IMG/VR virus record: IMGVR_UViG_3300017989_000404
Coordinates: 1 to 26,211 of that record
Source: a virus
Reading direction: 5' to 3' (one strand)
Length of the DNA: 26,211 nucleotides
Shown here: piece after piece, positions 8,520 through 23,933 of the stretch
Position numbering within the stretch: the first letter of the stretch is position 1
Layout: the number at the start of each line of letters is the position of its first letter
Translations under genes and position numbers: made by a program
The notes under the pieces: model-generated
What the model was told of the DNA's origin: nothing
The model's database searches: none
What the model saw: the letters and a program-made list of their open reading frames with translations, nothing else

Positions 8520-9959
8520 TTAACTCCTGTTCAACACTTCTATGTCTTCAGTGCCGTTAAATAAAGCAAACCGACTGTTATGCGTGTGTACTATTTCATA
8601 CTGCCTGGAAGTGTATACACCCATCCTGCGCAGTGTAGTGTAAAAATCATACTCACCAGTCTTTCCAAGCCCTAGTATCAGTTCATTTCCCCAAGCATTG
8701 TTGTTGTCTCTCCAACGTATGCTGAATTTATTTTCCGCTGTATAAGAGCCGTACCCTTTTTGAATACGGAACTTGATCCAGTTTGACTTCTTGCGTAGCT
8801 GTGTGCCGTGTGTAACGTGCCCTGTCTGCCTGACTGTTCGGATCGTATCACCCCAGTCCTGAAATGTATCCAGCGACATATTGCCCACCAGACCGTTATT
8901 TCTGCCGCCTACAAGGTGTTTATTCCAGGGGCTGACATAATCATAAGTCTGCCCAAGAAAACGCTCGTGAGAGGCTGTAGACTTATTCCAGTAAGACCAT
9001 TCGTGCCATTCATTCCTTGATACATCATATACCAGCGTTCTGTCTGCTGTAGGAAACTGTGTAACGTAAAAGATGTGCCCTGCGATCCTGTATATATCAG
9101 ACATTGCATTGCTGATATCGCTGAATCCTTGTACTACCCTGTCGTAAGGAGTGGACAAAGGTTCAGGCAAACCAACACCAGGCCAGCGCACACAGCGTCT
9201 GTCTTCATCCCAGTAATACCAGAACCCTTCAGCAAACTGTACGGTATCAGCAGCAATACACCCTTTCTTAATTGCACTGCCAATATCCCTCTGAAAGTTA
9301 AAGAACAAAGAGCCGGTATCCTGCCATGTTTCAATTGTATGTGTCCCAAAAGCAAGCAACAGTCCTCTAAATTCTACTACTTTCGTAGCGTCATCAGGGT
9401 TTACATTTGCGACAAAGCTGTCAGTTGCACCGTTGAACACATCGGAATTGGCATCTGTGTAATATATCCTGTCGTCACCGTATCTTGTCACAACCAAACG
9501 CTTGTTGATTGTCGCAATGGAAGTTGCCTGAAAGTCTACAACACCCGATACACTCAACTGACTAACGGTCCATGTCCCATCTATTTTGATAATGTGCTGC
9601 CCGTTTACCATGTAAATGTTATCGCCACGTTCAACAAAAGAAACGCGCTGTCCTACCAGCATTTTACTTGTTGCTCTTGTTGTAACATTACCGGCACTGT
9701 CAACCGAGTATATATTGCCGTTGCATACCACAACTTCTTCATCCTGAGTGCCCCAATAGAACAAGCCGTCTATCGAATTACTGCTGTTGGAAGTATCAGC
9801 AAACGATTCTATTCCAGGACGTTTAACTGTCGCTGGTTGCCCTTCCTGCGGGAGTTCGGTTACATAGCCGTCTATCAGAAGCGCAGACAGTTCAGACAGT
9901 CCCTCTTCAGGGATGTTCTGATATACAGGTGTGTTAAAAGGTACCGGGCGTTCAGCCAT
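8520..9959 (-). CDS. P22 gp10-like packaged-DNA stabilisation / tail hub protein, 479 aa
   Basis: The sequence fits the Phage_stabilise (P22 gp10) family. It has an N-terminal stretch with KRPGIESFADT (residues about 46-56), repeated beta-blade motifs (DGLFYWGTQDEEVVVCNGNIY, MYMVNGQHI-type strands, RYGDDRIYYTDANSDVFNG), and a long beta-rich body. The length is close to P22 gp10 (about 470 aa). In P22, gp10 binds gp4 below the portal and plugs the filled head; the same role is expected here with the gp4-like product at 15237-16091. GGAGG precedes ATG 9959 by six bases, and the gene abuts the preceding fibre gene. Confidence 0.85.
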   Translation of the reverse strand: MAERPVPFNTPVYQNIPEEGLSELSALLIDGYVTELPQEGQPATVKRPGIESFADTSNSSNSIDGLFYWGTQDEEVVVCNGNIYSVDSAGNVTTRATSKMLVGQRVSFVERGDNIYMVNGQHIIKIDGTWTVSQLSVSGVVDFQATSIATINKRLVVTRYGDDRIYYTDANSDVFNGATDSFVANVNPDDATKVVEFRGLLLAFGTHTIETWQDTGSLFFNFQRDIGSAIKKGCIAADTVQFAEGFWYYWDEDRRCVRWPGVGLPEPLSTPYDRVVQGFSDISNAMSDIYRIAGHIFYVTQFPTADRTLVYDVSRNEWHEWSYWNKSTASHERFLGQTYDYVSPWNKHLVGGRNNGLVGNMSLDTFQDWGDTIRTVRQTGHVTHGTQLRKKSNWIKFRIQKGYGSYTAENKFSIRWRDNNNAWGNELILGLGKTGEYDFYTTLRRMGVYTSRQYEIVHTHNSRFALFNGTEDIEVLNRS

Positions 9960-10085
9960 TACCAGCCTCCAACCTCAAGGGTCGCTCTACCCCAAGAGTT
10001 AGCACCCACACAAACGTAGATGTAATTTGTATCCCATGCTATGCTGCCCTGATCTCCTGTATCGCCAGTGCTGGACGGTGTTTTG
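9959..10085 (-). repeat. C-terminal module shared with the 355-aa protein (copy 1)
   Basis: The last roughly 40 residues (GDQGSIAWDTNYIYVC, NSWGRATLEVG) align with the end of the 355-aa protein (GDTGEVAWDSTFVYVY, NGWGRATLEVG). Spacing is the same and WGRATLEVG is identical. The similarity is clear in protein but weak in DNA, so the duplication is old or the module was acquired separately. Confidence 0.75.
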
Positions 10086-11554
10086 GAACTGCGTATACGA
10101 ATGTAATCATCGTTAACATCAAGTGCGCAAGTAGGATCGTTCCCTGTGCCACCGCGTAAAAGTAGACCGCCAAAGCCGCTATCAATTGTTGGGTCAAATT
10201 CGAATGCGTGGTTGAGTATATTTCCGTCAATATAAAAATGTCTTGTCCCGTTATCAGTGTTAAATGTATATGCTGATCCAAGCCATGTGATATCAGTTGA
10301 ATCAATTGTTACTTGATCGTTGCCTGCATCAACCTTAAAGCAGTTCGCCATTGTATCCCCTTCAACTCTGAAGTCAACATTGTCGCTGCCGTTGTTAATA
10401 ACAATTTCAATGCTGTCTGCGTGAAATGCGCTTATGTTACCGTTATCAATCACTATATCAAAGCCAGAAGATGAACTGGAAACAACCTGTGTATATATTC
10501 TGTCTGTAGCATCACCCATTGTGATTGACGAACCGATTCCCCCAAGCATATAAATTTGTGAATAAAGATTATCTTCTATAAGAACAGCACCATCTGAAAT
10601 GTGTATAGGGTCTGCCCCTGAATCACCTGTTTTAACATGAAGCAGCACATCAGCTTCAGGTGTATCTGTGTTCAAGCCGATGCTGTTTGCGCTTGCATCA
10701 ATAAAGAACATGGCAGAGTTGCTGTCGGATTCGCACCTTAAATCTTTATCTGCTCCTGATTCGTTGAATACAAACGCGCCTCCGTCAATATCCACATTGC
10801 CAGCTATAGACAGTGTAGAATCAAGAGTAACAGCACCTGTAATTCCAACCGTTGACTGAAACTGCGCAGCACCAGCACAAGACAATGTTGTGGATAAGGT
10901 CAATGCATGTGTGAAAGTAGCAGCCCCGCCGTCAGCAATATAAAGGCCATTATTACCATCATCGTATAAGCGAACACCATCACCATCACGAGCCCTAAAC
11001 TCATCGGCTTTGACTTCTTTGCCGTCTGCAAAAATAACATTACCATCTCCCTGAAAGATCATTTCTTTAAGCGCATCTGTTGTATTCGTAATACTGAATC
11101 CATTATCAGCAGTAGATATTTCCAATCTGTAATCATCTGTGCTTGCGCTGTTAAGCTTTAATCCGCCGCCTGCTGCATTTGTTGGAGATAAGGTGAGTAC
11201 ATCCTGATTGTTGCTTGTGTAATCGTCTGCAGGACCAACCCTGAACCCGCCAAGGAATGTTTCAAGAGTTACGCCGTCATTATCTTTCATCACTACATCG
11301 TAATAACCAGGCCGTGCGTATATTTCAGCACGACCGTAAGCATTAGTTGTGTAAGGATTACTCACGGGATTGGACTCGTCTTTGTCGTCATACAAAGTAG
11401 ACAATGTGGTTGTGCCGTGATCGTAAACTGTAACCTCACCGCTGATAAGCTGGTCGCCTGAATTATCATCAAAGCCTATCCACAAAGGGAACTGATAAGC
11501 GGTAGCTGAAGCAGCCACCGCTATAAACAACATCAGGATTGTTAGTATTTTCAT
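9959..11554 (-). CDS. Modular fibre-like protein with Sec signal peptide, 531 aa
   Basis: The chosen start ATG 11554 overlaps the previous stop by one base (TAATG) and puts a clean signal peptide at the N-terminus: MKILTILMLFIAVAASATA, with an AxA-type site after A19. A longer reading from 11587 would bury it inside the protein and has no better ribosome site. Residues about 30-100 form a fibre-type domain (GEVTVYDHGTTTLSTLY, SNPYTTNAYGRAEIY, GYYDVVMKD). The middle is beta-solenoid-like, with RDGDGVRLYDDGNNGLY. The end GSIAWDTNYIYVC then NSWGRATLEVG is nearly shared with the neighbouring 355-aa protein. This looks like a tail fibre or adhesin; why it should be exported is unclear. Confidence 0.75.
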   Translation of the reverse strand: MKILTILMLFIAVAASATAYQFPLWIGFDDNSGDQLISGEVTVYDHGTTTLSTLYDDKDESNPVSNPYTTNAYGRAEIYARPGYYDVVMKDNDGVTLETFLGGFRVGPADDYTSNNQDVLTLSPTNAAGGGLKLNSASTDDYRLEISTADNGFSITNTTDALKEMIFQGDGNVIFADGKEVKADEFRARDGDGVRLYDDGNNGLYIADGGAATFTHALTLSTTLSCAGAAQFQSTVGITGAVTLDSTLSIAGNVDIDGGAFVFNESGADKDLRCESDSNSAMFFIDASANSIGLNTDTPEADVLLHVKTGDSGADPIHISDGAVLIEDNLYSQIYMLGGIGSSITMGDATDRIYTQVVSSSSSGFDIVIDNGNISAFHADSIEIVINNGSDNVDFRVEGDTMANCFKVDAGNDQVTIDSTDITWLGSAYTFNTDNGTRHFYIDGNILNHAFEFDPTIDSGFGGLLLRGGTGNDPTCALDVNDDYIRIRSSKTPSSTGDTGDQGSIAWDTNYIYVCVGANSWGRATLEVGGW

Positions 11555-11680
11555 TAGTACCCCACTTCCAAAGTAGCTCGGCCCCATCCGTTAGCAACAC
11601 CTGTATAGACATAGACAAAAGTAGAATCCCACGCAACTTCTCCTGTATCTCCAGGATCAGCAGAAGCAGGTGATTGCGTC
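11554..11680 (-). repeat. C-terminal module shared with the 531-aa protein (copy 2)
   Basis: This is the partner of the module at 9959-10085: the protein ends SADPGDTGEVAWDSTFVYVY, then TGVANGWGRATLEVGY. A common C-terminal tip on two different stalks suggests a shared binding or trimer-capping function. Confidence 0.75.
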
Positions 11681-12621
11681 TGTACAATCTGCACTGAATC
11701 GCTGTTTACTGACAACAACTGTACAGGCTGTGTTGTTCCAATGCCTACTTGTCCAGTATCCAATATTCTCAACCTGTATGCCGCTTCATCCTGATCATAT
11801 ATACCGAAAGCATCTTCATCATTAATGAACTGAGTGCCACCTTCCGTATTTTCCAGCCACAAAGAAGCGAGATTTCCATCGGTAGCAGTTATCTTTATCC
11901 TTTGTGACACGCCGCTGCCGCTCACCTCAAGCGGCTGTGAAGGGGAATTAGTACCTATTCCGACTTGTCCATTATCCAGAATTCTCAACCTGTAAGCAGA
12001 TTGATCCTGATCATATATACCAAAAGCATTTTCATCATTAATGAACTGAGTGCCGCCTTCCGTATTTTCCAGCCATAATGATGCAAGATTGCCGTCAGTC
12101 GATGTTATTTTGATCCTTTGTGACACACCGCTACCGCTTACCTCAAGTGGCTGTGAAGGGGCATTAGTACCTATACCAACCTGGCCTCCATCCTCAATGA
12201 ATACACCGAGATTGTCTCCGTCATCAATCAAAGAAAGGCCGCTTGCATCCATGGCTTTAACTGCTTTGAGTTCTAACGTGTCGCTCGATACAACGGATAT
12301 GCCGACCCATATATTATCCTGAGTGAATATAGTTACAGCATCACTGTCTTTAATGACAATCTTAATCCAGCCTGAAGCGGTGTATAAAGAGCCTCTACCT
12401 ATAGAATCAAGAGTGAAGGGGTTAGACGCAGCCCCTCCACTTTTTGAAGTAAAGCAATCTCTAAGATCGGTTGTTCCAGCGTTATATACAGTGACCGTAC
12501 CGTCAGCGTTAAGTAATCCGTCTGTGCTAGCAATCCCATATATCACACCGTCAATCTGGTAGTAATTAGTTGCACACAAAGGCAGGCACAACACTATTAA
12601 GCATAGCAACAGCTTGCGCAT
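11554..12621 (-). CDS. Modular fibre-like protein with signal sequence, 355 aa
   Basis: ATG 12621 follows AAGGAGG by four bases. The protein starts with a short hydrophobic signal (MRKLLLCLIVLCLPLCA), possibly cleaved after A17 or retained as an anchor. The next domain (GTVTVYNAGTTDLRDCF, SNPFTLDSIGRGSLYTASG, KIVIKDSDAVTIF) is homologous to that of the 531-aa neighbour. Two tandem 72-residue modules follow, each with VGIGT-NxPSQPLEVSG, SQRIKIT, SLWLENTEGGTQFIND and YRLRILDNG or DTG. A third VGIGT and the shared C-terminal module WGRATLEVG close the protein. VGIGT repeats are typical of fibre proteins. It is probably a receptor-binding or surface protein made with the 531- and 869-aa proteins. 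Confidence 0.75.
   Translation of the reverse strand: MRKLLLCLIVLCLPLCATNYYQIDGVIYGIASTDGLLNADGTVTVYNAGTTDLRDCFTSKSGGAASNPFTLDSIGRGSLYTASGWIKIVIKDSDAVTIFTQDNIWVGISVVSSDTLELKAVKAMDASGLSLIDDGDNLGVFIEDGGQVGIGTNAPSQPLEVSGSGVSQRIKITSTDGNLASLWLENTEGGTQFINDENAFGIYDQDQSAYRLRILDNGQVGIGTNSPSQPLEVSGSGVSQRIKITATDGNLASLWLENTEGGTQFINDEDAFGIYDQDEAAYRLRILDTGQVGIGTTQPVQLLSVNSDSVQIVQTQSPASADPGDTGEVAWDSTFVYVYTGVANGWGRATLEVGY
11751..11966 (-). repeat. 216-base fibre module, copy A
   Basis: This is one of three copies of a 72-codon unit. It is tandem with copy B at exactly 216 bases period, and the two differ at scattered sites, many of them synonymous. Some stretches match the distant copy C more closely than B, for example the codons for YRLRIL preceded by Glu-Ala-Ala rather than Gln-Ser-Ala. 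Confidence 0.85.
11967..12182 (-). repeat. 216-base fibre module, copy B
   Basis: This is the tandem partner of copy A in the same gene, coding for the same 72-residue module (VGIGTNAPSQPLEVSG through to YRLRILDNG). Confidence 0.85.
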
Positions 12622-12630
12622 TCAGCCTCC

Positions 12631-15240
12631 TTAATCGGTAAGATCGGTTGCTGTTACAACCCCGTTAACGACTTCGATGCGATAATATTTACCGTTGGTT
12701 GTGTCTTTAAGAACCACACCCTTCCAGGCAAAAGGTGTGTCGTCGTCATTTTTTCCCAAATAATATGTGTCATCCGTATGAGGGTAAATATTACCCTCAA
12801 CATCAAGTTTCGCATTCGGGCTTGCTGTGCCTATGCCTACATTCCCGCCTGAAGGATTCAGCGAAAGCGGATAAGATACACCGCCAAACACACTAATGGA
12901 TTGTAACCATCCGCCAAAGGGGCTATTTGGGTTTACACCGAAATCAAGCCCTACGCTGTTGCCAGACTGGGTAAGCCTGAGTAAATTTGTGCTACCATCC
13001 AAAGCAGGAGCACCGGATGTACCATAGATATGACACTCGCAGGACGGGCTGTCACGGTTTAACCCGATATACCCATTATCCAGAATTCTCAACCTGTATG
13101 CCGCTTCATCCTGGTCATATATTCCAAAAACATCTTCATCATTAATGAACTGGGTTCCACCTTCAGTATTTTCCAACCACAAGGAAGCAAGGCTTCCATC
13201 GGTAGCAGTTATTTTTATTCTTTGTGATACGCCGCTGCCACTTACTTCAAGCGGCTGTGAGGGAGTCGCAGTGCCTATACCAACCTGACCGCCATCTTCA
13301 ACGAATATGCCGTTGTCAGCATCGTCAACAAGGTAGAGTCCTGCCCCATCTCTTGCTTGAATTTTATCAGCTTGTATTTTTCTACCATCACCTATATCCC
13401 AGTCACCTGTCAGTGCAACCGTGCCGTCCTTGTTGACGTAATCGTCAGGATCAATGTACGCCTCTAGTGTGGTGTCGCTTTCGAGTTTAGTGTACACTTC
13501 TGTTGAATTGTAGGAATATGCGTCAATAATATCCTGTATTTCGTTCGTGGTTTTTTCTGAATCTTGTGAATCAAGGTTTACCCATCCACTGTTGTAACCC
13601 TGAAAGTTTGATCCGTCCCATCTGATAGTACCATCATTTGTTCCTGCTGAAGTGCCAAGTTTAATAGCCCCGTTGACTTCGAGCTTTTCTGAAGGTGTTG
13701 CGGTACCGATACCTACCCTATTTGTGTTTGCATCACCGAATATCAGGTTCTGGTCAGTATCACCTTCAACCCTGAAGTCTCCCTGTGTGTTTCCATCCTC
13801 GTTGAATACGGCTGTGTCGTTACATATCACATGCTCAGCTTCGACTGTATCAGCAATTTTAACATCACCATTAACCTCAAGTGTTGCAGATGGGGTGGTT
13901 GTACCAATACCTACACTTCCAAATGTTCCTGCACCAGTAGCAGCACCGACATGCAGTGTTGGAACGGTGGAGTTAAAGCCTACATTAAAGCTGTTAGCAG
14001 CACCAGTAAGCCTGTTTGTGTTATCAACACCAATACCGACTATCATGTTACCAGCACCAGTAGCTGTAATCCATTTTCCCAGAGCCATTGTGTTCGCTGT
14101 GTTGGCATTATTGAGTTCACCAATGGAGAAAGCACCCTGACCATAAACCAGGTTACCGTTGCCATGTGAGAATGAATATACTCCATCTGACTCGCAGTTG
14201 TAACCAGACGAGAACGAGTTATCACCAGCTGACTCACAAAACTGCCCAAATGTTGCTGTGTATTCACCGATAGAAGCGTCATCCCATTCTGTTCCAGTGC
14301 ATGTGCCAGCCCTGAAAGCTCCTCTCCTTGGATACCAAAACATTCTGGTTCCAGCACCGGAGTAAGGAATATAGTTTCCCGATCCATAAGTTCCAGATGC
14401 ACCCATAATATCATTGCCTTTAATCATGCCTGTTGTAACTTCCAATGTGCCAGCTACTTCAAGGGATGATCCTGGTGTCTGTGTTCCTATTCCAACATTG
14501 CGATCTTCAACATACACATAAGGGTTAGCTTCAGTCCATGGAACACCAATAAAGCCGCCAGCAGCTTCAACTGTTCCGCTAAAATATGCGCCGTTATCCG
14601 CTGTTACAGTCAATCTATCGTTTTCCCCATCAAGTCCAACTGGATCACCCACTACTATGCCACCCTTTGCTTTAATTGGGCCAGTCACTTCAATGGTTGC
14701 CAGAATTTCTATAGAGCCGCCGTCTTTTGATTCTATAATATTTGTTTCAATTGAGTTCAGAGATACGCTTGATGTACCGCCTGTAATGAAAGATTGCCAG
14801 TCTGTTCCGTCATAGCCGTAAAACTCATCGTCATCAGAGTCGTAATACATCCAACCTTCAGAAGGGCTTGTTGGAGCTCCAGATTGAGGTTCAATCTCAA
14901 TCGTTCCAACTGCAAACGTTTCTATCGTAGATAAAGGCAGTGTGCCGTCAGGACCAACAATAATTTGTCCATAACCATACGTTTCGTTGTAACCACCAAC
15001 AGTACCTGTAGGATGGGAAGCACTCATCGGGATAAAAGCTGTGGATACCGTAGGATCGTGATTAAGTATCAAACCCCCGTCATCATCAAGTGCAAACACC
15101 CGATGTACAGGTGGTGAAGAGGTAACATCGTACCCTCCTATAACACCAGCAGGATGGAATGCATCCAACGGAGGAGCAACTCCGAAAACACCAACAGTAA
15201 ATAATACGGTAAACAACACACACCATTTGCATGATTTCAT
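12631..15240 (-). CDS. Large modular fibre/adhesin-like protein with signal sequence, 869 aa
   Basis: ATG 15240 overlaps the stop of the gp4-like gene (ATGA) and follows GGGAGG by eight bases. The N-terminus is a signal-type segment (MKSCKWCVLFTVLFTVGVFG). Two HPxGxxGGY repeats and a phage-type GWMYYDSDDDEFYGYDG segment follow. Five VGIGT-xxPSxxLEV repeats, plus one decayed copy, are spread along the body. Residues about 313-400 look like a YadA-type beta-roll head, with recurring S/A-x-G steps (GQFCESAGDNSFSSG, YSFSHGNGN). The 72-residue module shared with the 355-aa protein comes next. The C-terminus (GKYYRIEVVNGVVTATDLTD) is like phage fibre tips. No outer-membrane anchor or chaperone peptidase domain is visible. 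It is probably a host-recognition fibre. Confidence 0.78.
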   Translation of the reverse strand: MKSCKWCVLFTVLFTVGVFGVAPPLDAFHPAGVIGGYDVTSSPPVHRVFALDDDGGLILNHDPTVSTAFIPMSASHPTGTVGGYNETYGYGQIIVGPDGTLPLSTIETFAVGTIEIEPQSGAPTSPSEGWMYYDSDDDEFYGYDGTDWQSFITGGTSSVSLNSIETNIIESKDGGSIEILATIEVTGPIKAKGGIVVGDPVGLDGENDRLTVTADNGAYFSGTVEAAGGFIGVPWTEANPYVYVEDRNVGIGTQTPGSSLEVAGTLEVTTGMIKGNDIMGASGTYGSGNYIPYSGAGTRMFWYPRRGAFRAGTCTGTEWDDASIGEYTATFGQFCESAGDNSFSSGYNCESDGVYSFSHGNGNLVYGQGAFSIGELNNANTANTMALGKWITATGAGNMIVGIGVDNTNRLTGAANSFNVGFNSTVPTLHVGAATGAGTFGSVGIGTTTPSATLEVNGDVKIADTVEAEHVICNDTAVFNEDGNTQGDFRVEGDTDQNLIFGDANTNRVGIGTATPSEKLEVNGAIKLGTSAGTNDGTIRWDGSNFQGYNSGWVNLDSQDSEKTTNEIQDIIDAYSYNSTEVYTKLESDTTLEAYIDPDDYVNKDGTVALTGDWDIGDGRKIQADKIQARDGAGLYLVDDADNGIFVEDGGQVGIGTATPSQPLEVSGSGVSQRIKITATDGSLASLWLENTEGGTQFINDEDVFGIYDQDEAAYRLRILDNGYIGLNRDSPSCECHIYGTSGAPALDGSTNLLRLTQSGNSVGLDFGVNPNSPFGGWLQSISVFGGVSYPLSLNPSGGNVGIGTASPNAKLDVEGNIYPHTDDTYYLGKNDDDTPFAWKGVVLKDTTNGKYYRIEVVNGVVTATDLTD
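13071..13286 (-). repeat. 216-base fibre module, copy C (in the 869-aa gene)
   Basis: The same 72-codon module appears near the 3' end of the neighbouring 869-aa gene, with long near-identical DNA stretches to copies A and B. Exchange of modules between adjacent fibre genes by recombination is the simplest explanation. Confidence 0.85.
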
Positions 15241-16091
15241 CTTCTTGTCCTCCCAATGTTAAATGCACCTTTTTTGAAGTGGTTATTAGTTATCGGCCTG
15301 TCGCCGTCTTTAGCTTGTTTCTTCAGTTTTGTGGCTTTCATTTCGTATAAACGCGGATCAACTCCATATTCGTAAGCCAGGTCTGCAGCAAGAGCAAACA
15401 CAAGATACTTATACCAACGTACAGGGAAGTCCGGGTTATTGGTTGATGTGTCAAAATCTTCAAGCAATCGCACTCGCATATATTCCAACACAAAGTCAGT
15501 ATTGTTTGGTTGAGGATAAAGATAAACATGCGGGATGAGTTTGCGGTGAAACGCCAGCTTATCTGGATATGATGAAGCGTCAAACTTGTTGTCGATTTTG
15601 AAATATTCGTCAAAAGTAATAATTGATACAGGGTAGTCGTGACTGGTTGTACTGCGTATATTGGCTGCTTCGATCAGAACTGTATCGGCATCTTCCTGCC
15701 AATCTCCAATCGAACTATATTCTGTATCGACAGCCCACACACCGCCTGTTGTGCCTCCCTGTTTCCAATAACTGAGATATTCTGCACCCGTTACAGGTCG
15801 ATTGTCTGCTGTTGCAGTATGACTTCTGGTGCATGTATAAATATTGCCGTCAGTCCCTGTAACTTCGCTTGATGCAGTAAAGGTCTTTGTTTTCCATTCA
15901 CGCGTCCACAGCATGACATTATCATCCTGCAAAGCTTTGACCAAAACATTAAGTGCTTCAGCACCTTCTGAAAGTTGCGCTGCCGTTGGATTCTGCCCTG
16001 TTGCGACTGCGCCAAGTTTCCTTAACGATTCAGTAATGAGTTTATTTCTGGTCAGTTCAAAGTCATATGATCCACTGGTTGTTTTAGACAT
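15237..16091 (-). CDS. P22 gp4-like tail adaptor / head completion protein, 284 aa
   Basis: Residues 10-70 match the start of gp4-type tail accessory factors: helical TRNKLITESLRKLGAVATGQNPTAAQLSEGAEALNVLVKAL, then NVMLWTREWKTKTF. The C-terminal part (VRWYKYLVFALAADLAYEYGVDPRLYEMKATKLKKQAKDGDR) is the matching helical end. P22 gp4 is about 166 aa; the extra length comes largely from an inserted module at about 74-126 (IYTCTRSHTA, LSYWKQGG, VWAVDTEY), of the kind seen in carbohydrate-binding-like phage segments. gp4-type proteins bind the portal and seat the gp10 hub. GGGGAG precedes ATG 16091. Confidence 0.8.
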   Translation of the reverse strand: MSKTTSGSYDFELTRNKLITESLRKLGAVATGQNPTAAQLSEGAEALNVLVKALQDDNVMLWTREWKTKTFTASSEVTGTDGNIYTCTRSHTATADNRPVTGAEYLSYWKQGGTTGGVWAVDTEYSSIGDWQEDADTVLIEAANIRSTTSHDYPVSIITFDEYFKIDNKFDASSYPDKLAFHRKLIPHVYLYPQPNNTDFVLEYMRVRLLEDFDTSTNNPDFPVRWYKYLVFALAADLAYEYGVDPRLYEMKATKLKKQAKDGDRPITNNHFKKGAFNIGRTRR

Positions 16092-16113
16092 TCGCTCCCC
16101 TTACAAGTAGAAA

Positions 16114-16129
16114 GGGGGCAAAAGCCCCC
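16114..16129 (-). other. Intercistronic stem-loop
   Basis: GGGGGC (16114-16119), loop AAAA, GCCCCC (16124-16129) form a perfect six-pair GC hairpin. It sits six bases or so after the stop of the 221-aa gene and 22 bases before the gp4-like start. On the minus strand it is followed by only TTTC, so it would be a weak terminator at best; an RNA processing or attenuation element is possible. Confidence 0.6.
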
Positions 16130-16135
16130 CGCCTA

Positions 16136-16801
16136 TTAATAATCAATCGTGTACGGATCGGGCACAGCATCTTTGTCAACATCACTCGGTAATGCCGAAG
16201 TGCCACTTGGTAACGATCCTTTGAATGTATAAAAGGTTGTCGTTACACCGGTTGCGTTAAAGTTAGTTGTTGATGGTGTGAAGTCGTTGTCGGTTGTTTT
16301 AACCAAGATCGCACACAGAGCCGCTTCGTTAGAGGGTATAGCCGGTAACACTGCTGTTTCGGTTGTAGCATCGTATTCCGTTCCCTGAGTAACCGTAACA
16401 GAAGCATTTGGGTCAGTGTCGCTGCCGTCAAAAGAGGCTAAATAATAGCACTGTTCCCCTGCTTCTAAAACAGCAGCCGACTGCCAGTCAAGGATTTCAG
16501 CGGTAGCATAGCAGTATTTCAGCACACCGTCAATTATAGCTTCACAGGTTACCAGGGTCCAGACGCTTGCACCGTCTGCCGCTGTACCAGCTTCCTGCAC
16601 AGCACCTGTCGACAAAACAGCTTCAGCAGGCCCAAGACCCATATAACGCTGGTTGTGTTTTAGAGCATTTACCATTGTTTGCAATTCGCCTATAAGATAC
16701 CATTCCCCCCACGACACATTATGCCCTGAAGGTGTGTACCTGTATGAAGCAAACAGTGTTATAATCGCACATAAGATTACAAGCACCGCTATTCTCTTCA
16801 A
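16136..16801 (-). CDS. Exported/anchored protein of the structural operon, 221 aa, TTG start
   Basis: The start codon is TTG at 16801, four bases after AAAGGAGG; no ATG exists nearby that would keep the N-terminus. The N-terminus KRIAVLVILCAIITLFASYRY is a signal peptide or uncleaved anchor. The remainder is polar and beta-rich, with VLPAIPSNEAALCAILVKTTD around residues 150-170 and an acidic tail. I do not recognise a named family, though the mid part resembles phage decoration-type sequences. It is one of four neighbouring late genes with a signal sequence, and hairpins flank it on both sides. Confidence 0.7.
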   Translation of the reverse strand: MKRIAVLVILCAIITLFASYRYTPSGHNVSWGEWYLIGELQTMVNALKHNQRYMGLGPAEAVLSTGAVQEAGTAADGASVWTLVTCEAIIDGVLKYCYATAEILDWQSAAVLEAGEQCYYLASFDGSDTDPNASVTVTQGTEYDATTETAVLPAIPSNEAALCAILVKTTDNDFTPSTTNFNATGVTTTFYTFKGSLPSGTSALPSDVDKDAVPDPYTIDY

Positions 16802-17108: not shown

Positions 17109-17543
17109 TTATCCGCTGTAGCGTTCGGACATAAAGTATTCTGCCCAACAGCATACCTTTGCGGCATCAGTGTCATGACCCATTACGAGGTCAATCGTAT
17201 CAGCCGCCGCGTAATACTTTGTTGTACCTGCATATGTGTCTGTTGCTTCAAGTGAAATCTGACCCGTTGCAGAGTTCAGATTAAGACTTGCATCCCATCC
17301 GTCAGCGGTAGCTGCATCACCAACGGTTGCTGTGCAGGCACCTCCTTCTGCTGTAAGCACTTCAGCACCCCAACGTATCACACGTGCTCCTGCCGGAATT
17401 TTGAGAACCTGGACGATATCAGTTGCCGATACGTTTGTTGCGGAAAAATCCAGATAGTTCTCAGTCCAGATTGAACGCCCACCGATCGCCTGTTTTTCGA
17501 CTGCAGCCTGTCCAGTCAGAAATGTTTTGATTGTGTCAGCCAT
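17109..17543 (-). CDS. Decoration / head-stabilising-type protein, 144 aa
   Basis: The gene lies directly downstream of the major capsid gene and starts at ATG 17543, six bases after AGGAGG. The product is beta-rich and Ala/Thr-rich, with VLKIPAGARVIRWGAEVLTAEGG at residues about 46-68 and TATVGDAATADGWDASLNLN after it, a pattern I have seen in phage proteins encoded beside capsid genes. A stabilising or minor head protein is the best guess. No enzymatic motif is present. Confidence 0.6.
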   Translation of the reverse strand: MADTIKTFLTGQAAVEKQAIGGRSIWTENYLDFSATNVSATDIVQVLKIPAGARVIRWGAEVLTAEGGACTATVGDAATADGWDASLNLNSATGQISLEATDTYAGTTKYYAAADTIDLVMGHDTDAAKVCCWAEYFMSERYSG

Positions 17544-17554
17544 TATTTACCTCC

Positions 17555-18700
17555 TTAGGCCAGAGTGATATCGGACTGCTGTGTTCTGCTTACGTAGAAG
17601 GAGAACTGCCCGTTATCAAAGGTAAAGGAACTGGACGGATCAGTGAACTGAGGCTTTGCCACACCGAAGTCAAAGTCGATTGCATAACCAACCTGATCGG
17701 TATAGTCAAAGGTTTCCATTACCATGTAAGGCTCAGTCCCGAACGCCAGACCGATTGCATCTGCTCCAAGAAACTTGCCGTGCGACCACGGGACAGCACC
17801 TGCGCCGCCATCAGTTGCGATCGGCATTTTCTCGTAGCCATGAATTATTACGTTGTTGTAAGTACAGATTGCATCCTTAAAAAGAGGATGGTCCTTGCCT
17901 TTGCCCTGCCATGCGCTGTTGACGATGTTGATCCACTCTGTATTGCGCAGCATGTCGGCTTTTACATCTGTATGCACAAGAGCGACAAACCACGGTGTAC
18001 CGTCAATCATGAGTGGAGCAAGTTTCGGACGCTGACCGTCTCTGCCTGTTAAAGCTGCTGAATACATCAAAGAAACCATTGCAGGTGTGAACTTTGAAGT
18101 TGTAGCTGAAAGAGCAGCTTTAGCTGTTGCAGCAGTTCCAGTGAGTTCGTACTTGTTATCTGTCACACCGTCATAGTAGTAAATCTCCGTTGGAGCCGCA
18201 AGCAATGTGGTGCGTGTAACATTGTCGATCTTCTGAGCAGCCCAGTTGTAAAGCAGGTTTTTGCTCACTTCGTCAAACTTGAAGTAAGTTCTTTTCCTTG
18301 CCATGCGGCTGCGTGAGCGTGTAGCGTTCCTGTACTGCGCCAGCGTTATGGAGTAATCATCCGTGCTGATGTCAGATTCGTTGTCCTCCAGGGTCTGGCC
18401 TTCTGTTACGCCACTATTCTCATCGAGTTCAAAGTAAAACCCGACTGTGAGTTTGTCGCCAGGTTCGCGGCCTTTGAAATCTTTGTAAGCGTGAACAATG
18501 GAATTGCCCCCACCATCAATTACTCCACGGTGGCTGTCAAGATACTGCTTCTGTTCCTTTGCAGGAAGACCATTCCTTCTGAGAAAGTCTCCTGAAAAGC
18601 GGGAAAGAAAAAAGCACTGCCTGGGCATTTCAGACATAAATTCCGATGCCCACCTTTTAACTGTAAGGTTATCGGCAGAAGTAAAGTTTTTTGATGCCAT
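17555..18700 (-). CDS. Major capsid protein, N4-gp56 / DUF4043-like, 381 aa
   Basis: The region GFYFELDENSGVTEGQTLEDNE (residues 87-108), followed by DDYSITLAQYRNATRSRSRMARKR, is the hallmark E-loop-like segment of the DUF4043/N4-gp56-type capsid proteins as I recognise it. Next comes a helical spine with VSKNLLYNWAAQKIDNVTRTTLL. The C-terminal half has the P-domain-like strands and VALVHTDVKADML. Length is normal for an HK97-fold capsid. It sits right after the scaffold gene, with AGGAGG before ATG 18700. P22's own coat is a different subfamily, so head and tail genes here are mosaic. Confidence 0.82.
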   Translation of the reverse strand: MASKNFTSADNLTVKRWASEFMSEMPRQCFFLSRFSGDFLRRNGLPAKEQKQYLDSHRGVIDGGGNSIVHAYKDFKGREPGDKLTVGFYFELDENSGVTEGQTLEDNESDISTDDYSITLAQYRNATRSRSRMARKRTYFKFDEVSKNLLYNWAAQKIDNVTRTTLLAAPTEIYYYDGVTDNKYELTGTAATAKAALSATTSKFTPAMVSLMYSAALTGRDGQRPKLAPLMIDGTPWFVALVHTDVKADMLRNTEWINIVNSAWQGKGKDHPLFKDAICTYNNVIIHGYEKMPIATDGGAGAVPWSHGKFLGADAIGLAFGTEPYMVMETFDYTDQVGYAIDFDFGVAKPQFTDPSSSFTFDNGQFSFYVSRTQQSDITLA

Positions 18701-18715: not shown

Positions 18716-19720
18716 TTATCCTTTCTTTGCTTCCCACGCATCAACGTCAGACCATGTGATTTGCCCTTTGTCGATCAGTTCGATAAGTGCAGCATCACCA
18801 CCGGCTTTGTGAATGGAATCAAGATCAATTCCACCTTCTGTATCTGTGGTGTTCGAAGCATTGGCTGTTACTGTCTTCTTTTGACCGGAAACAGTTTTAG
18901 CTCTTTGCCTTGCTACGTTTTCCTGCTGCAACTTCTTTTCCTGACCTTTTTTCTCCAGGTCTGCCAGTCTCTGCGTAAGCTGAACGTTTTTGGCTTTCTG
19001 AATATACAACTGCAGTTCGTTGGAAAGACGAGGGTCAAGAGGATCAGCAATAAAAACATCAACAGCACCTGGAGCCCATATCGCAGAATCTTTTTTTGCC
19101 AGGTCTTTGATTGTTGGCAAAAGATTGTCGAGTTCAGGCTCTGCAGTCCTGACTGCTTGCTCATGTTTGCTTTTCAATTGCATTTGCTGCCTCTGATAAG
19201 CATTCAAGTAAGCAACAGGGTTCTGCTCATATCTGATACGTTCTTCGTCTGACATTTCCGGTAGCTGTTCTTGCTGTTGCGGACCTTTAGCATTGCTTAA
19301 ATCAGTTCTTAACTTGTCGATTAAGCTTTGCTTTTCCTGTACTTGCCTTTCCAATTTACTCAGCCGTTCTTCAACTGGGTCAACTGATTCTTGAGTTTCG
19401 GAAGTTTCTTGCTGTGTCTCCTGCTCTGTCTGGGTTTCGCTGACTTCACCTTGACTGTCAGAACTTACTTCCTCTGTGCTTGGTTCGGTAAATACATTTT
19501 CGCCAGCACTTGCTAATGTCTGGTATTCAGCGGCAAGCTCAATAGGTAATTCGCCGCGATCAATCGCGGCAACTAGCTGCTCTTCGCTTTTCCCTTCCAG
19601 CAGTTCGCGGTACTGGTCGAACTTGTTTTCCTGAACTTGCTGTTCAGAGGTTTCGGTTGTCTGCTGCTCAGTCAGGTTCTCTTCAACTACTGCCGATGTT
19701 TCGGCGTTTTCTACGTTCAT
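18716..19720 (-). CDS. Capsid scaffolding protein, 334 aa
   Basis: The protein is acidic and Gln/Glu/Thr-rich over its first 115 residues (EENLTEQQTTETSEQQVQEN and similar). A coiled-coil helix (VEERLSKLERQVQEKQSLID) and a Gln/Lys-rich helical part around residue 240-275 follow. This composition, with position immediately before the capsid gene, is typical of phage scaffolds, which guide coat assembly and leave the head before packaging. The extreme C-terminus (SDVDAWEAKKG) is likely the coat-facing end by analogy. AGGAGG lies four bases before ATG 19720. Confidence 0.8.
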   Translation of the reverse strand: MNVENAETSAVVEENLTEQQTTETSEQQVQENKFDQYRELLEGKSEEQLVAAIDRGELPIELAAEYQTLASAGENVFTEPSTEEVSSDSQGEVSETQTEQETQQETSETQESVDPVEERLSKLERQVQEKQSLIDKLRTDLSNAKGPQQQEQLPEMSDEERIRYEQNPVAYLNAYQRQQMQLKSKHEQAVRTAEPELDNLLPTIKDLAKKDSAIWAPGAVDVFIADPLDPRLSNELQLYIQKAKNVQLTQRLADLEKKGQEKKLQQENVARQRAKTVSGQKKTVTANASNTTDTEGGIDLDSIHKAGGDAALIELIDKGQITWSDVDAWEAKKG

Positions 19721-19871: not shown

Positions 19872-20045
19872 CTAAGTTACCCGCTTATACGTTTCCTTGT
19901 AATTAGTTGTGACCCAAGCTATTCCGCCTTTCTCAATGCGAATAACAATTTCACCACTTACCTTGTTTTTAATTATACCGTATTCCTTCATGAGTTTCAA
20001 CAGTGCCCCTAAAAAGGTATTGACATGCACATTACTTTTATGCAT
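19872..20045 (-). CDS. Small basic protein, 57 aa, downstream of portal
   Basis: ATG 20045 overlaps the last codons of the portal gene by eight bases (the portal ends AAT-GCA-TAA), and TAG ends the frame at 19872. The product begins MHKSNVHVNTFLGALLKLMK and has a helix and then amphipathic strands (GEIVIRIEKGGIAWVTTNYK). The regular helix-strand pattern, translational overlap and the terminator directly behind it support a real gene. Family unknown. The ribosome site is weak (AGGA about ten bases upstream), as expected for a coupled gene. Confidence 0.65.
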   Translation of the reverse strand: MHKSNVHVNTFLGALLKLMKEYGIIKNKVSGEIVIRIEKGGIAWVTTNYKETYKRVT

Positions 20046-22305
20046 TGGGAGGCATTCCTGTTCCAGGCTGCTGCGGAGCCGGTCCCTGTTGTAACCCTAA
20101 CTGCTGCGCCAGCTGTGGAGATATGATCCCCTGCCGGAACAGTTCTTTTGCAACGGACTTATACTGTTCGGTGAAGTATTTAAGCTGCTCACCCATAGCA
20201 CCGGCCTGCTGCTGTTGCCTGATATTCTGCAGGTACTCAGCCTTTATTGATGCAGGCATATCGGAAAGCTGTGCAACAATTGTAGGATCAGGCGGTAATC
20301 CTGCCGCTCCAAGTCTTTCCATCATAGAAAGCGCAGCCTGTCTTTTTGCTGGTGTATCAAGGTTTTCGTCAACTATAAGATCGAATTTCACAAGGTCGAA
20401 GTTATCAAGCACAGACTGTATTACCTCAGGTGGATATAGCATCAATTCCATAGTCTGCGGTATTTGCGGTGCTTGCTGACCGGACATTGCTTTCAGCGGT
20501 GCAGTAGACAGCTTCAACTCATTCCGTGCATTCTCTGAGTACAGTATTCTGATAACCCTTTCTTTGCTGTATATCTTTTGTATCGCTTTGATAATAAGTT
20601 TGCCAAGTCTCTTCTTTGCATTGCTGTGGTTGTCGTACAAATATTCGTTGCCAACAAGTCCTTTTTCTTCCTGGAACAGCAAAGCTTTACCTGACTGCCG
20701 TTCTGCTTGCCCAAGCATAGCCAGATTGACATTAGCCAAGTCCCTGACCTTCTGCGGTGCTGTAAAAGAGAACTGGAACAACTCAGGCGGTATCTTCTGC
20801 CCTTCCATCTGACGAGGGACATCGTTCATATCGTTGACTTCCCACACCGTACCAGGACTTGAGCCGTAATCCTTGAAGTCCTCAAAGTCTGATGGATTGG
20901 AAAACATATCCTTGCGTACAAAGGTTGGGTTTGCATTAGCCTTTGTCGCATAATCAACGATCAACGATTCCATCTTGTCGATCTGCTTGTTCATATCCAT
21001 CAAACCCTGAACTTTTCCCCGGTATTTGTTCTTTCTCTTTTTCGCATAATCAAACACCAGGTTAATGTCGCCATCAAACGGATACTGCTTGTCATCTGGG
21101 AAATATGCGTCCAGAAGGATATCTTCGGTAAAAGTAATTATCTTGATGACTGGCTTCAAGAATGGTGTGACAACAAACGCTTCTACACCTTTAATTGCTG
21201 CAATCTCTTCAGCCGAGAAGTCTTCAAGCACAACATGGTCACCCCTGTCGGTGGATGCGTCACGGTAATTGCTAAGCCAATACACGCGTTTCTTGTACCG
21301 CTGCACAACCTCAACAACCTTAAAGGTTTTGCGGGCAACATCGCTTAAAGAAAGGTCGCCAATGGGTTCGTTAACCTGTGTGCCGTGTTCGTATGCTTCG
21401 TTACCGTGATACTGGACATGATCTTTTGGCTCTTCCTCTTCTGTAAGATCACACATCACACGTTCAAGTTCAGAAGCTTTTTCCGGGAACATATCCTTGG
21501 CTTCACGCAAAGAGTACCACTTGTGCTTGGCTGCATACTGCATATCACGCTGATCTATACTGTTATGTGGCCCACCGTCAACATCGTCCCACGGGTAATG
21601 GTTGATAACAATTTCACCTTCAGGGTTTTCGCTGTAATCAACGTAAATTTCAAACACGCCAATTCCGGCATCAAGTTTGTCTTCGAACACACAACTGTCA
21701 ACAATTGAAAACTCATTTGACTCCAGCACCTGGTTGAGACAGACGTTCATAATGTCAGCAGATAACTGGTCTCCGTTATCAACAGCATAGCAATGCAGCT
21801 TAGTCCTGTTCCTGCGCTGATAACCGCACAGGCTGTCTGTTATTGCCTCAGTGTAATTCAGCGTCAAAGCGCAACGATCCTTGTCGTTAAGGTCTTGAAG
21901 TGTTTTCTTATCCCAGTGTTCCCCTTCAACAAAAGCAACAGCCTTTTTACCGAGCTTCTTGGAATCACGGTTGTACACAACAGCACCTTTCCAAAGGCTC
22001 TTACCTATTTCCAGGTCTTCTGCTTCTTCCTTTATATCCTTGGGTTCAGGGATATACTCGCCTGCAAACTCATGCGAATGCATGGTTTTTCCAGCAGGAT
22101 AGATAACCCATTGCGCCATGCCCTGTGGTTCGCCTATTTCTGTCTCATTATAAATAACTTCCTGCTCCACTGCATGGGTGTGACCTTTAGCAGGTGCAAT
22201 ATAACGTGTCACCTGCCCGGTCGCTTCATTCACAACTTCAACAGCCAAGTGAAAGTGAGAGCCTGCGCCTCTGCCCACTTTCGATGTTTGCAAAATGTTT
22301 ATCAT
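20038..22305 (-). CDS. P22-type portal protein, 755 aa
   Basis: Length and sequence order fit P22-like portals (about 725 aa in P22). After residue 110 come KKLGKKAVAFVEGEHW, LNYTEAITDSLCGYQRRNR (a helix that starts the wing), NHYPWDDVDGGPHNSIDQRDMQY, and the stem/clip-like KKRKNKYRGKVQGLMDMNKQIDKMES. A long C-terminal helical barrel-like tail follows, rich in Gln and Pro. Portals form the dodecameric DNA entry ring and dock TerL. An unusual N-terminal domain (1-85) carries three His pairs: H17-F-H19, H42-T-H44 and H76-S-H78. AGGAGG precedes ATG 22305. TerL is immediately upstream. Confidence 0.85.
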   Translation of the reverse strand: MINILQTSKVGRGAGSHFHLAVEVVNEATGQVTRYIAPAKGHTHAVEQEVIYNETEIGEPQGMAQWVIYPAGKTMHSHEFAGEYIPEPKDIKEEAEDLEIGKSLWKGAVVYNRDSKKLGKKAVAFVEGEHWDKKTLQDLNDKDRCALTLNYTEAITDSLCGYQRRNRTKLHCYAVDNGDQLSADIMNVCLNQVLESNEFSIVDSCVFEDKLDAGIGVFEIYVDYSENPEGEIVINHYPWDDVDGGPHNSIDQRDMQYAAKHKWYSLREAKDMFPEKASELERVMCDLTEEEEPKDHVQYHGNEAYEHGTQVNEPIGDLSLSDVARKTFKVVEVVQRYKKRVYWLSNYRDASTDRGDHVVLEDFSAEEIAAIKGVEAFVVTPFLKPVIKIITFTEDILLDAYFPDDKQYPFDGDINLVFDYAKKRKNKYRGKVQGLMDMNKQIDKMESLIVDYATKANANPTFVRKDMFSNPSDFEDFKDYGSSPGTVWEVNDMNDVPRQMEGQKIPPELFQFSFTAPQKVRDLANVNLAMLGQAERQSGKALLFQEEKGLVGNEYLYDNHSNAKKRLGKLIIKAIQKIYSKERVIRILYSENARNELKLSTAPLKAMSGQQAPQIPQTMELMLYPPEVIQSVLDNFDLVKFDLIVDENLDTPAKRQAALSMMERLGAAGLPPDPTIVAQLSDMPASIKAEYLQNIRQQQQAGAMGEQLKYFTEQYKSVAKELFRQGIISPQLAQQLGLQQGPAPQQPGTGMPPNA

Positions 22306-22316
22306 TTTATGCCTCC

Positions 22317-23933
22317 TTATTTACCCATCCAACCAGCGTGTGACATAGCAGAACTACGTCTTCTCGGTCGTGAATATCTCTGTCTTCCCAGATAATACTT
22401 TTCATCTATGGATACAGCCAGAATAAAGGCACTTGCCTTATCAGGGCTGCGGCCTATCTCTTTTTCGATCGCCTTATTCGAGTCTATTTTAAGTTTGCCT
22501 TTGAATACGTCCCTGTTTTCTTTTTTAGGAGAAGTAAGCTCAACCATTAATTCTTCATCTTCAATGATCTTTATGTTACCGGCTTGAAAGCAAGAGCGGG
22601 CAACGTTCCACAGTTCGTCTTTGCGCCGATAAAACATATCGTCCCGTGGTTTAGCAGATACATCCTCGGATATAATAACAATAGACATATCCCGTATAAG
22701 CTTGCGCACCATCGTTACAATTGCTCTACCTATACCAGTTGCCTCTATTGATGCGACATGACAGTTATTCTCGATGAAAGATTGTACAATTTCTTGAGCA
22801 AGTAACGTTTCGTCACGTTCATGGACTTCAGGTCTTATCTCTACCTGCTTAACATGGTTTGGCCCCTGAAAATACTGGATAATGGTTTTGTCTTTAATCA
22901 AACCAATATCAACACCGGCTTTAAGGGGGTAATCTTCCTGCATCTTAAAAGGTTCTCTATGCGCTGCCTCTTCCACCCATACCCATGGAATGAAAGAACC
23001 TGTTTCAGCAGTCGGAAACTTAGAGCGCACATAAATCTTAAACCCGTCTGTATCTTCACCGCCGTATTGAATCTTCATTTTGTCGATGTGTATTTGTTTT
23101 TGCGCTTCAGGCATACGATCGGTTTTGTAAAAGTCCCATGTCAAAGGAATGTAAAGGCTGCGCTTCGGGCCTCGGTGTGTTGAGTAAGCAAAGCCACGGT
23201 TCTTTGTCGGGTTAAAGATAGGAAAGATATAGTTGTGAAGGTCAGAACAAGTATTCTCGATCTGCTCAATGATCTGATCCTCAACCTTGTTTGCCTCATC
23301 AATAATGAAGAACATGTACTTTTCGTGGAAACCGTCAATCGTCTTAGCCAGGTTACCATCTTCAAGAGAAACAGTTTTTGTAAAAGCCTTTCTGGTTGGA
23401 ACTCTTTTGTCGGTAAACGGGTCTTTGAAATACATGTTCTCTGCAGTCTTATCAAACCAATCCTTGATAATGCACATGTACTCACCGGCTTCGTTTGTAT
23501 GATTAAGCCATTTGTCTATTTCACGCCACAAGATATTCTGCAGCTGCGACTTTGAAGGTGCAAGGGCAATAACCTTAACCGGATCAAAGCATGTCAGAGC
23601 CCATGGAATTAACATACCTCCTGCTACACAGTCTTTACCCGTACTTTTGGCTGAGCAGACAGAAGCTCCTGCAGCTTTAATATACCGCAGGAGCACCTTA
23701 TTCTTAATTCTGTTAACGTCTTTAACCCTTGGACTGTGCTGTAGCCAGGTCTTTGCCCAGAGCAACCGCCTCAACTCATTTAAGAACTGATACTGTTGAT
23801 TAGAAACACGCGGTTCTTTGTCCGATCCAACCGGATGAAACCCCATAGCTTCAATAACAAAACGGTACGGGTCATATCTCCAATCTCCGATCTTCTGGGC
23901 AAGCTTATTTATTTCCTCTTGTGTTATCTGCAT
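22317..23933 (-). CDS. terL: Terminase large subunit
   Basis: The 538-aa protein carries both halves of a packaging motor. The ATPase has a Walker A-type loop CSAKSTGKD (93-101), a Walker B strand MFFIIDEA (207-214) with D212/E213, and a coupling segment IFNPTKNRGFAYSTHR (239-254). The RNase H-fold nuclease has AGVDIG (D342), SIEATGIG (E397) and GRSPDKASAF (D498), which supply the metal-binding acids. TerL cuts concatemers and pumps DNA through the portal encoded next. The start lies one base after the stop of the 35-aa gene, with only CAGGGTGA as a ribosome site, so coupling is likely. Confidence 0.93.
   Translation of the reverse strand: MQITQEEINKLAQKIGDWRYDPYRFVIEAMGFHPVGSDKEPRVSNQQYQFLNELRRLLWAKTWLQHSPRVKDVNRIKNKVLLRYIKAAGASVCSAKSTGKDCVAGGMLIPWALTCFDPVKVIALAPSKSQLQNILWREIDKWLNHTNEAGEYMCIIKDWFDKTAENMYFKDPFTDKRVPTRKAFTKTVSLEDGNLAKTIDGFHEKYMFFIIDEANKVEDQIIEQIENTCSDLHNYIFPIFNPTKNRGFAYSTHRGPKRSLYIPLTWDFYKTDRMPEAQKQIHIDKMKIQYGGEDTDGFKIYVRSKFPTAETGSFIPWVWVEEAAHREPFKMQEDYPLKAGVDIGLIKDKTIIQYFQGPNHVKQVEIRPEVHERDETLLAQEIVQSFIENNCHVASIEATGIGRAIVTMVRKLIRDMSIVIISEDVSAKPRDDMFYRRKDELWNVARSCFQAGNIKIIEDEELMVELTSPKKENRDVFKGKLKIDSNKAIEKEIGRSPDKASAFILAVSIDEKYYLGRQRYSRPRRRSSAMSHAGWMGK

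Follow-up and report, generated by a model that had tools for sequence, protein, structure and literature searches.

Predicted Sec-type signals precede tailspike head-binding domains in the tail operon of a podophage

Tail fibres are usually taken to be cytoplasmic products that are added to virions before lysis. Known podophage tailspikes, such as P22 gp9, Sf6 gp14 and those of Pam1 and Pan3, begin with a head-binding domain. We describe a virus whose fibre genes lie in the same adaptor/nozzle operon neighbourhood and one of whose products, of 531 aa, has the same N-terminal fold, but in the two proteins with such a domain a predicted signal of 17-19 residues comes before it, and no beta-helix lyase domain or other enzyme domain was recognised behind it. 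The nearest precedent for a signal followed by a head domain is WceF of Pantoea stewartii (PDB 6tgf), a secreted tailspike-like enzyme in which a P22-like head domain follows a Tat signal (PMC7949094). The order of export signal and P22-like head domain is the same in both cases; however, WceF is a beta-helix enzyme encoded in a bacterial exopolysaccharide cluster, whereas our proteins come from phage tail-operon genes and their signals are of the Sec type. Among cultured podophages, BcepC6B (gp19) and PBR31 (orf35) have in common a fibre-like protein that carries a signal and is encoded in the late region, as here, but it belongs to another fibre family (phrog_11393) and has no head-binding domain match. 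DGR target proteins of phages are without signal peptides (PMC6199706). The literature searched contained no account of tail fibres with signal peptides; this coverage is partial, and such an absence is weak evidence of novelty.

The DNA analysed here, called the window, is an entire viral record of 26,211 bases and carries a single late operon, encoded on the minus strand. Its features are as follows.

22317-23933, minus strand: terminase large subunit
20038-22305, minus strand: portal
18716-19720, minus strand: scaffold-like protein
17555-18700, minus strand: major capsid protein
17109-17543, minus strand: small protein between the capsid and 221-aa genes
16136-16801, minus strand: 221-aa orphan protein with a hydrophobic N-terminal segment, TTG start
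16745-16801, minus strand: its hydrophobic segment, residues 1-19, a signal peptide or signal anchor
15237-16091, minus strand: tail adaptor-like protein without a signal (DSL-LC05 tail adaptor match, E 2.5e-7)
12631-15240, minus strand: 869-aa fibre-like protein with signal, GTRMFWYP section and VGIGT repeats
15160-15240, minus strand: its predicted signal peptide, residues 1-27 at most, candidate cleavage at G20 or A27
11554-12621, minus strand: 355-aa fibre protein with signal peptide, head-binding domain, VGIGT fibre repeats and C-terminal cap
12571-12621, minus strand: its predicted signal peptide, residues 1-17, putative site LCA17/T18 (from sequence)
12304-12564, minus strand: its head-binding domain, residues 20-106
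9959-11554, minus strand: 531-aa fibre protein with signal peptide, tailspike head-binding domain, fibre and C-terminal cap
11498-11554, minus strand: its predicted signal peptide, residues 1-19, AxA site ATA19/Y20 (from sequence)
11237-11497, minus strand: its head-binding domain, residues 20-106 (profile match to PDB 7eeq; Foldseek)
8520-9959, minus strand: nozzle/head closure protein Hc3 without a signal (phrog_578, E 4.6e-46)

The three fibre genes (869, 355 and 531 aa) sit between the tail adaptor and the nozzle/Hc3 gene. The adaptor gene overlaps the start of the 869-aa gene (ATGA), and the nozzle start overlaps the stop of the 531-aa gene. The rest of the late operon encodes large proteins, probably internal ones. 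The relatives of capsid and portal, at 20-27% identity, belong to podophages such as Paracoccus phage KLEP18-1 and the Bcep22-like phages, which places the window phage far from anything cultured. It is a podophage, short-tailed and with a P22-type tail, and the record is possibly fragmentary. Single-sequence scans of viral contigs with the nozzle, portal, capsid, 355-aa and 221-aa queries found no relatives. Terminase-based scans returned distant relatives only; one of them (L257) has capsid and portal in common with the window, and none shares its fibre genes.

All four frames of 221, 869, 355 and 531 aa are open over the coordinates listed above. Their products begin (TTG)KRIAVLVILCAIITLFAS-YRY, MKSCKWCVLFTVLFTVGVFGVAPPLDA-FHP, MRKLLLCLIVLCLPLCA-TNYYQ and MKILTILMLFIAVAASATA-YQF, respectively, each with a basic n-region, a core of strong hydrophobicity and a supported start. 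Shine-Dalgarno sequences stand upstream of 16801 (AAGGAGG), 15240 (GGGAGG) and 12621 (AAGGAGG), and the start at 11554 overlaps the preceding stop codon in TAATG; an alternative start at 11587, giving 542 aa, is less likely. As a measure of hydrophobicity, we took the best 11-residue Kyte-Doolittle mean within the first 35 residues. It is 3.65, 2.56, 3.17 and 3.17 for the 221-, 869-, 355- and 531-aa proteins and at most 1.38 for the remaining 16 proteins of the window, which bears out an earlier note on this DNA that had described basic residues and a hydrophobic core at these four starts. We calibrated the measure with two 50-kb segments of the E. coli K-12 genome, with secreted and cytosolic classes assigned from gene knowledge: a mean of at least 2.0 with a core starting by residue 14 was seen in 18 of 25 secreted proteins and 0 of 42 cytosolic ones. 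Such N-termini are rare in viruses, with 13 among 1243 mechanically called ORFs of at least 200 aa in viral loci (1/553 and 12/690), a rough yardstick that includes non-genes. By comparison, 4 of the 14 window proteins of at least 200 aa have one (Fisher 2e-5). No canonical lipobox ([LVI][ASTVI][GAS]C) and no twin arginine (RR) can be read in the four N-termini. The AxA site that had been picked out in the 531-aa protein is indeed clear and is the sole textbook site of the four; the other three sites are plausible but atypical. Because of their signal anatomy, their exact placement, their recurrence in other phages and their preserved character, we consider it likely that these are genuine Sec-type export signals.

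A P22-type tailspike head-binding domain lies directly behind the signal in the 355- and 531-aa proteins. Residues 24-106 of the latter match the first domain of tailspikes from Rhodoferax phage P26218, Idiomarinaceae phage 1N2-2 and others, and a profile of the domain matched PDB 7eeq, "Tailspike head-binding domain" (E 4.7e-4), and more weakly that of Pan3 (9vyg). An AF2 model based on six sequences, with a mean pLDDT of 74 and most domain blocks at 81-92, retrieved the head-binding domains of Pan3, Pam1, P22 gp9 and Sf6 gp14 in Foldseek. The domain of the 355-aa protein is 36% identical to that of its neighbour and matches a spike of PBR31 (E 2.6e-4) and one on the contig G026:C35 described below (E 3e-6). 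When aligned, Y20 of the 531-aa protein falls on Met1 of a signal-free spike, so that a spike N-terminus of the ordinary kind would result from the predicted cleavage after ATA19. Disulfide formation is an unlikely reason for exporting the 355-aa protein, since its mature form has one Cys. A hit to a LoVEphage lipoprotein (E 0.9) was a chance match.

We looked for the same combination in the phylum-level group to which a Desulfobacterales MAG belongs, covering 297 genomes. Counting the two in the window, signal and head-binding domain are fused in five proteins of four phage sequences; the other three are on contigs from two genomes, G026:C35 (GC 0.68), G126:C152 and G126:C192. A signal in front of a tail-docking domain, recurring on three other phage contigs, is a new result, and these independent cases strengthen the proposal of Sec-type signals on tail-fibre-like proteins. 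In 24 homologues the domain is signal-free and lies near the initiator Met. Nine of these come from phage records and four from additional viral contigs, ten are encoded at loci in genomes of a second phylum group, and the last is that of G720. Such signal-free homologues agree with the statement in the earlier note that tail fibres normally assemble in the cytoplasm. Signal carriers thus make up 5 of 29 head-binding proteins, with 5 of 6 in the window and the Desulfobacterales-type phylum group and 0 of 23 elsewhere. Host lineage may matter for the signal, but the sample is small. Strict lineage specificity is weakened by G720, which is of the same order as G026 and has the signal-free spike. 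The related signals end in textbook AxA sites (PAWA/A, PALA/A and VVA/Q), and in pairwise comparison the signal has changed more than the domain that follows but has remained hydrophobic. In the G026:C35 fusion gene, a downstream, signal-free start is possible at M32.

The same contig (L280, 33965-37857) has signals on products of 424, 120, 226 and 148 aa between capsid and nozzle, all from starts with Shine-Dalgarno support. Its nozzle was rejected as a further signal bearer, as alignment sets the true start at M15. On both G126 contigs, which belong to two distinct phages, a gene for a multi-spanning membrane protein of the O-antigen ligase family (Wzy_C, PF04932) follows 2-5 bases behind the fusion gene, within the podophage virion operon, at these positions.

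L304:7618-8802 (G126:C152): Wzy_C gene
L305:5302-6462 (G126:C192): Wzy_C gene

On G126:C152, adaptor and nozzle come directly after.

The four proteins differ in kind. All are signal-like at their N-termini, but we detected no head-binding domain in the 869- and 221-aa proteins, and the latter is an orphan for which the scans found no relatives and the AF2 model has a pLDDT of 35. Section 226-426 of the 869-aa protein matches a bacterial protein of 663 aa (L269) with which it shares the GTRMxWYP section. This protein and two more cellular ORFs with VGIGT-type sections (L270 and L273) also have signal-like N-termini. Unlike the 869-aa gene, however, that of L269 adjoins nusA/rimP-like genes and lies outside any virion operon. 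Searches for relatives of the 869-aa protein gave no match in plasmids and none among 398 genomes of a second phylum group, for which an empty answer alone shows nothing. A fibre repeat of 268 nt occurs in three copies, 78-79% identical, at 11744-12011 and 11960-12227 in the 355-aa gene and 13064-13331 in the 869-aa gene, pointing to recombination between neighbouring fibre genes.

These signals suggest that the window phage probably exports virion parts from the cytoplasm while it infects the cell. Given the recurring pair of signal and docking domain, either phages assemble some virion parts outside the cytoplasm or they send copies of the spike to the host envelope; a settled fate would alter the interpretation of phage genes that carry signals. 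The leading reading, cell-surface action also being possible, is that the mature fibres join virions at or after lysis, and we hold it tentatively, at somewhat less than an even chance. The fibres would be made late, from the coupled operon they share with tail adaptor and nozzle, and would cross the inner membrane by their Sec-type signals, which would then be removed. The mature 531- and 355-aa proteins would carry an ordinary N-terminal head-binding domain and could dock on the tails of particles outside the cytoplasm. Retention at the envelope is an alternative for the 869-aa protein and the 221-aa orphan. Use on the virion is favoured by the head-binding domain, by the tail operon and by the window, possibly part of a larger genome, offering no further fibre-like gene or receptor-binding candidate. 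P22 tailspikes join particles last, and their addition is possible in vitro. Counting against docking are the three cleavage sites that are not textbook and the 869-aa protein without a head-binding domain; moreover, since heads and tails are put together in the cytoplasm, exported fibres would be kept from their partners until lysis. A more elaborate form, which we regard as unlikely, is two-compartment assembly in some podophages: heads and tails would form in the cytoplasm, whereas the receptor-binding spikes would leave it, perhaps be altered by an envelope glycan enzyme, and dock only when lysis brings the compartments together. The candidate enzyme is the Wzy_C protein that two related phages encode next to the spike gene.

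We rank docking at or after lysis above action on the envelope, retention as an anchor and leftover signals, in that order. Exported proteins that never enter the virion could act on or coat the envelope, through glycan modification, receptor masking or superinfection exclusion. WceF makes this conceivable, as it shows that a head-binding domain can persist in a secreted protein on no virion (PMC7949094), and so do the Wzy_C gene within a few bases of the fusion gene on two phage contigs and the signal-like N-termini in cellular relatives of the 869-aa protein. The window, however, has no Wzy_C-like gene, its fibre genes are inside the tail operon with no enzyme domain found, and it offers no other receptor-binding candidate; we think this rather unlikely. 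The hydrophobic N-termini might instead be kept as membrane or virion anchors, for example as a helix seated in the tail hub. The 221-aa segment, more hydrophobic than every E. coli signal sampled and with no clear AxA site, could equally be an uncleaved anchor. As an account of all four proteins this is improbable: 24 homologous head-binding domains do without such a helix, and the related fusions have textbook AxA ends. The earlier note had left the choice between export and anchoring open, and the head-binding domain behind two of the signals favours an exported virion part over a pure anchor. That the signals are functionless passengers, acquired when fibres recombined with secreted bacterial fibre-like proteins and merely tolerated, seems more doubtful still. 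Such an origin would fit the repeats common to the fibre genes and the existence of cellular relatives of the 869-aa protein that carry signals, but one phage keeps four signals, and in other phages they recur with hydrophobicity kept despite divergence.

Three further features of the window were seen. The portal has an N-terminal extension of about 110 residues, outside the portal family match, with repeated His motifs (SHFHL, HTHAVE and HSHEF). In the lysis region, an 88-aa protein (2452-2718) contains RHERKHLEQ, possibly a small HExxH-like metallopeptidase motif. The product of 826-1287 on the plus strand begins MNILGIDPGNVQSAYVLW and, by the look of its sequence, resembles a RuvC-type resolvase.
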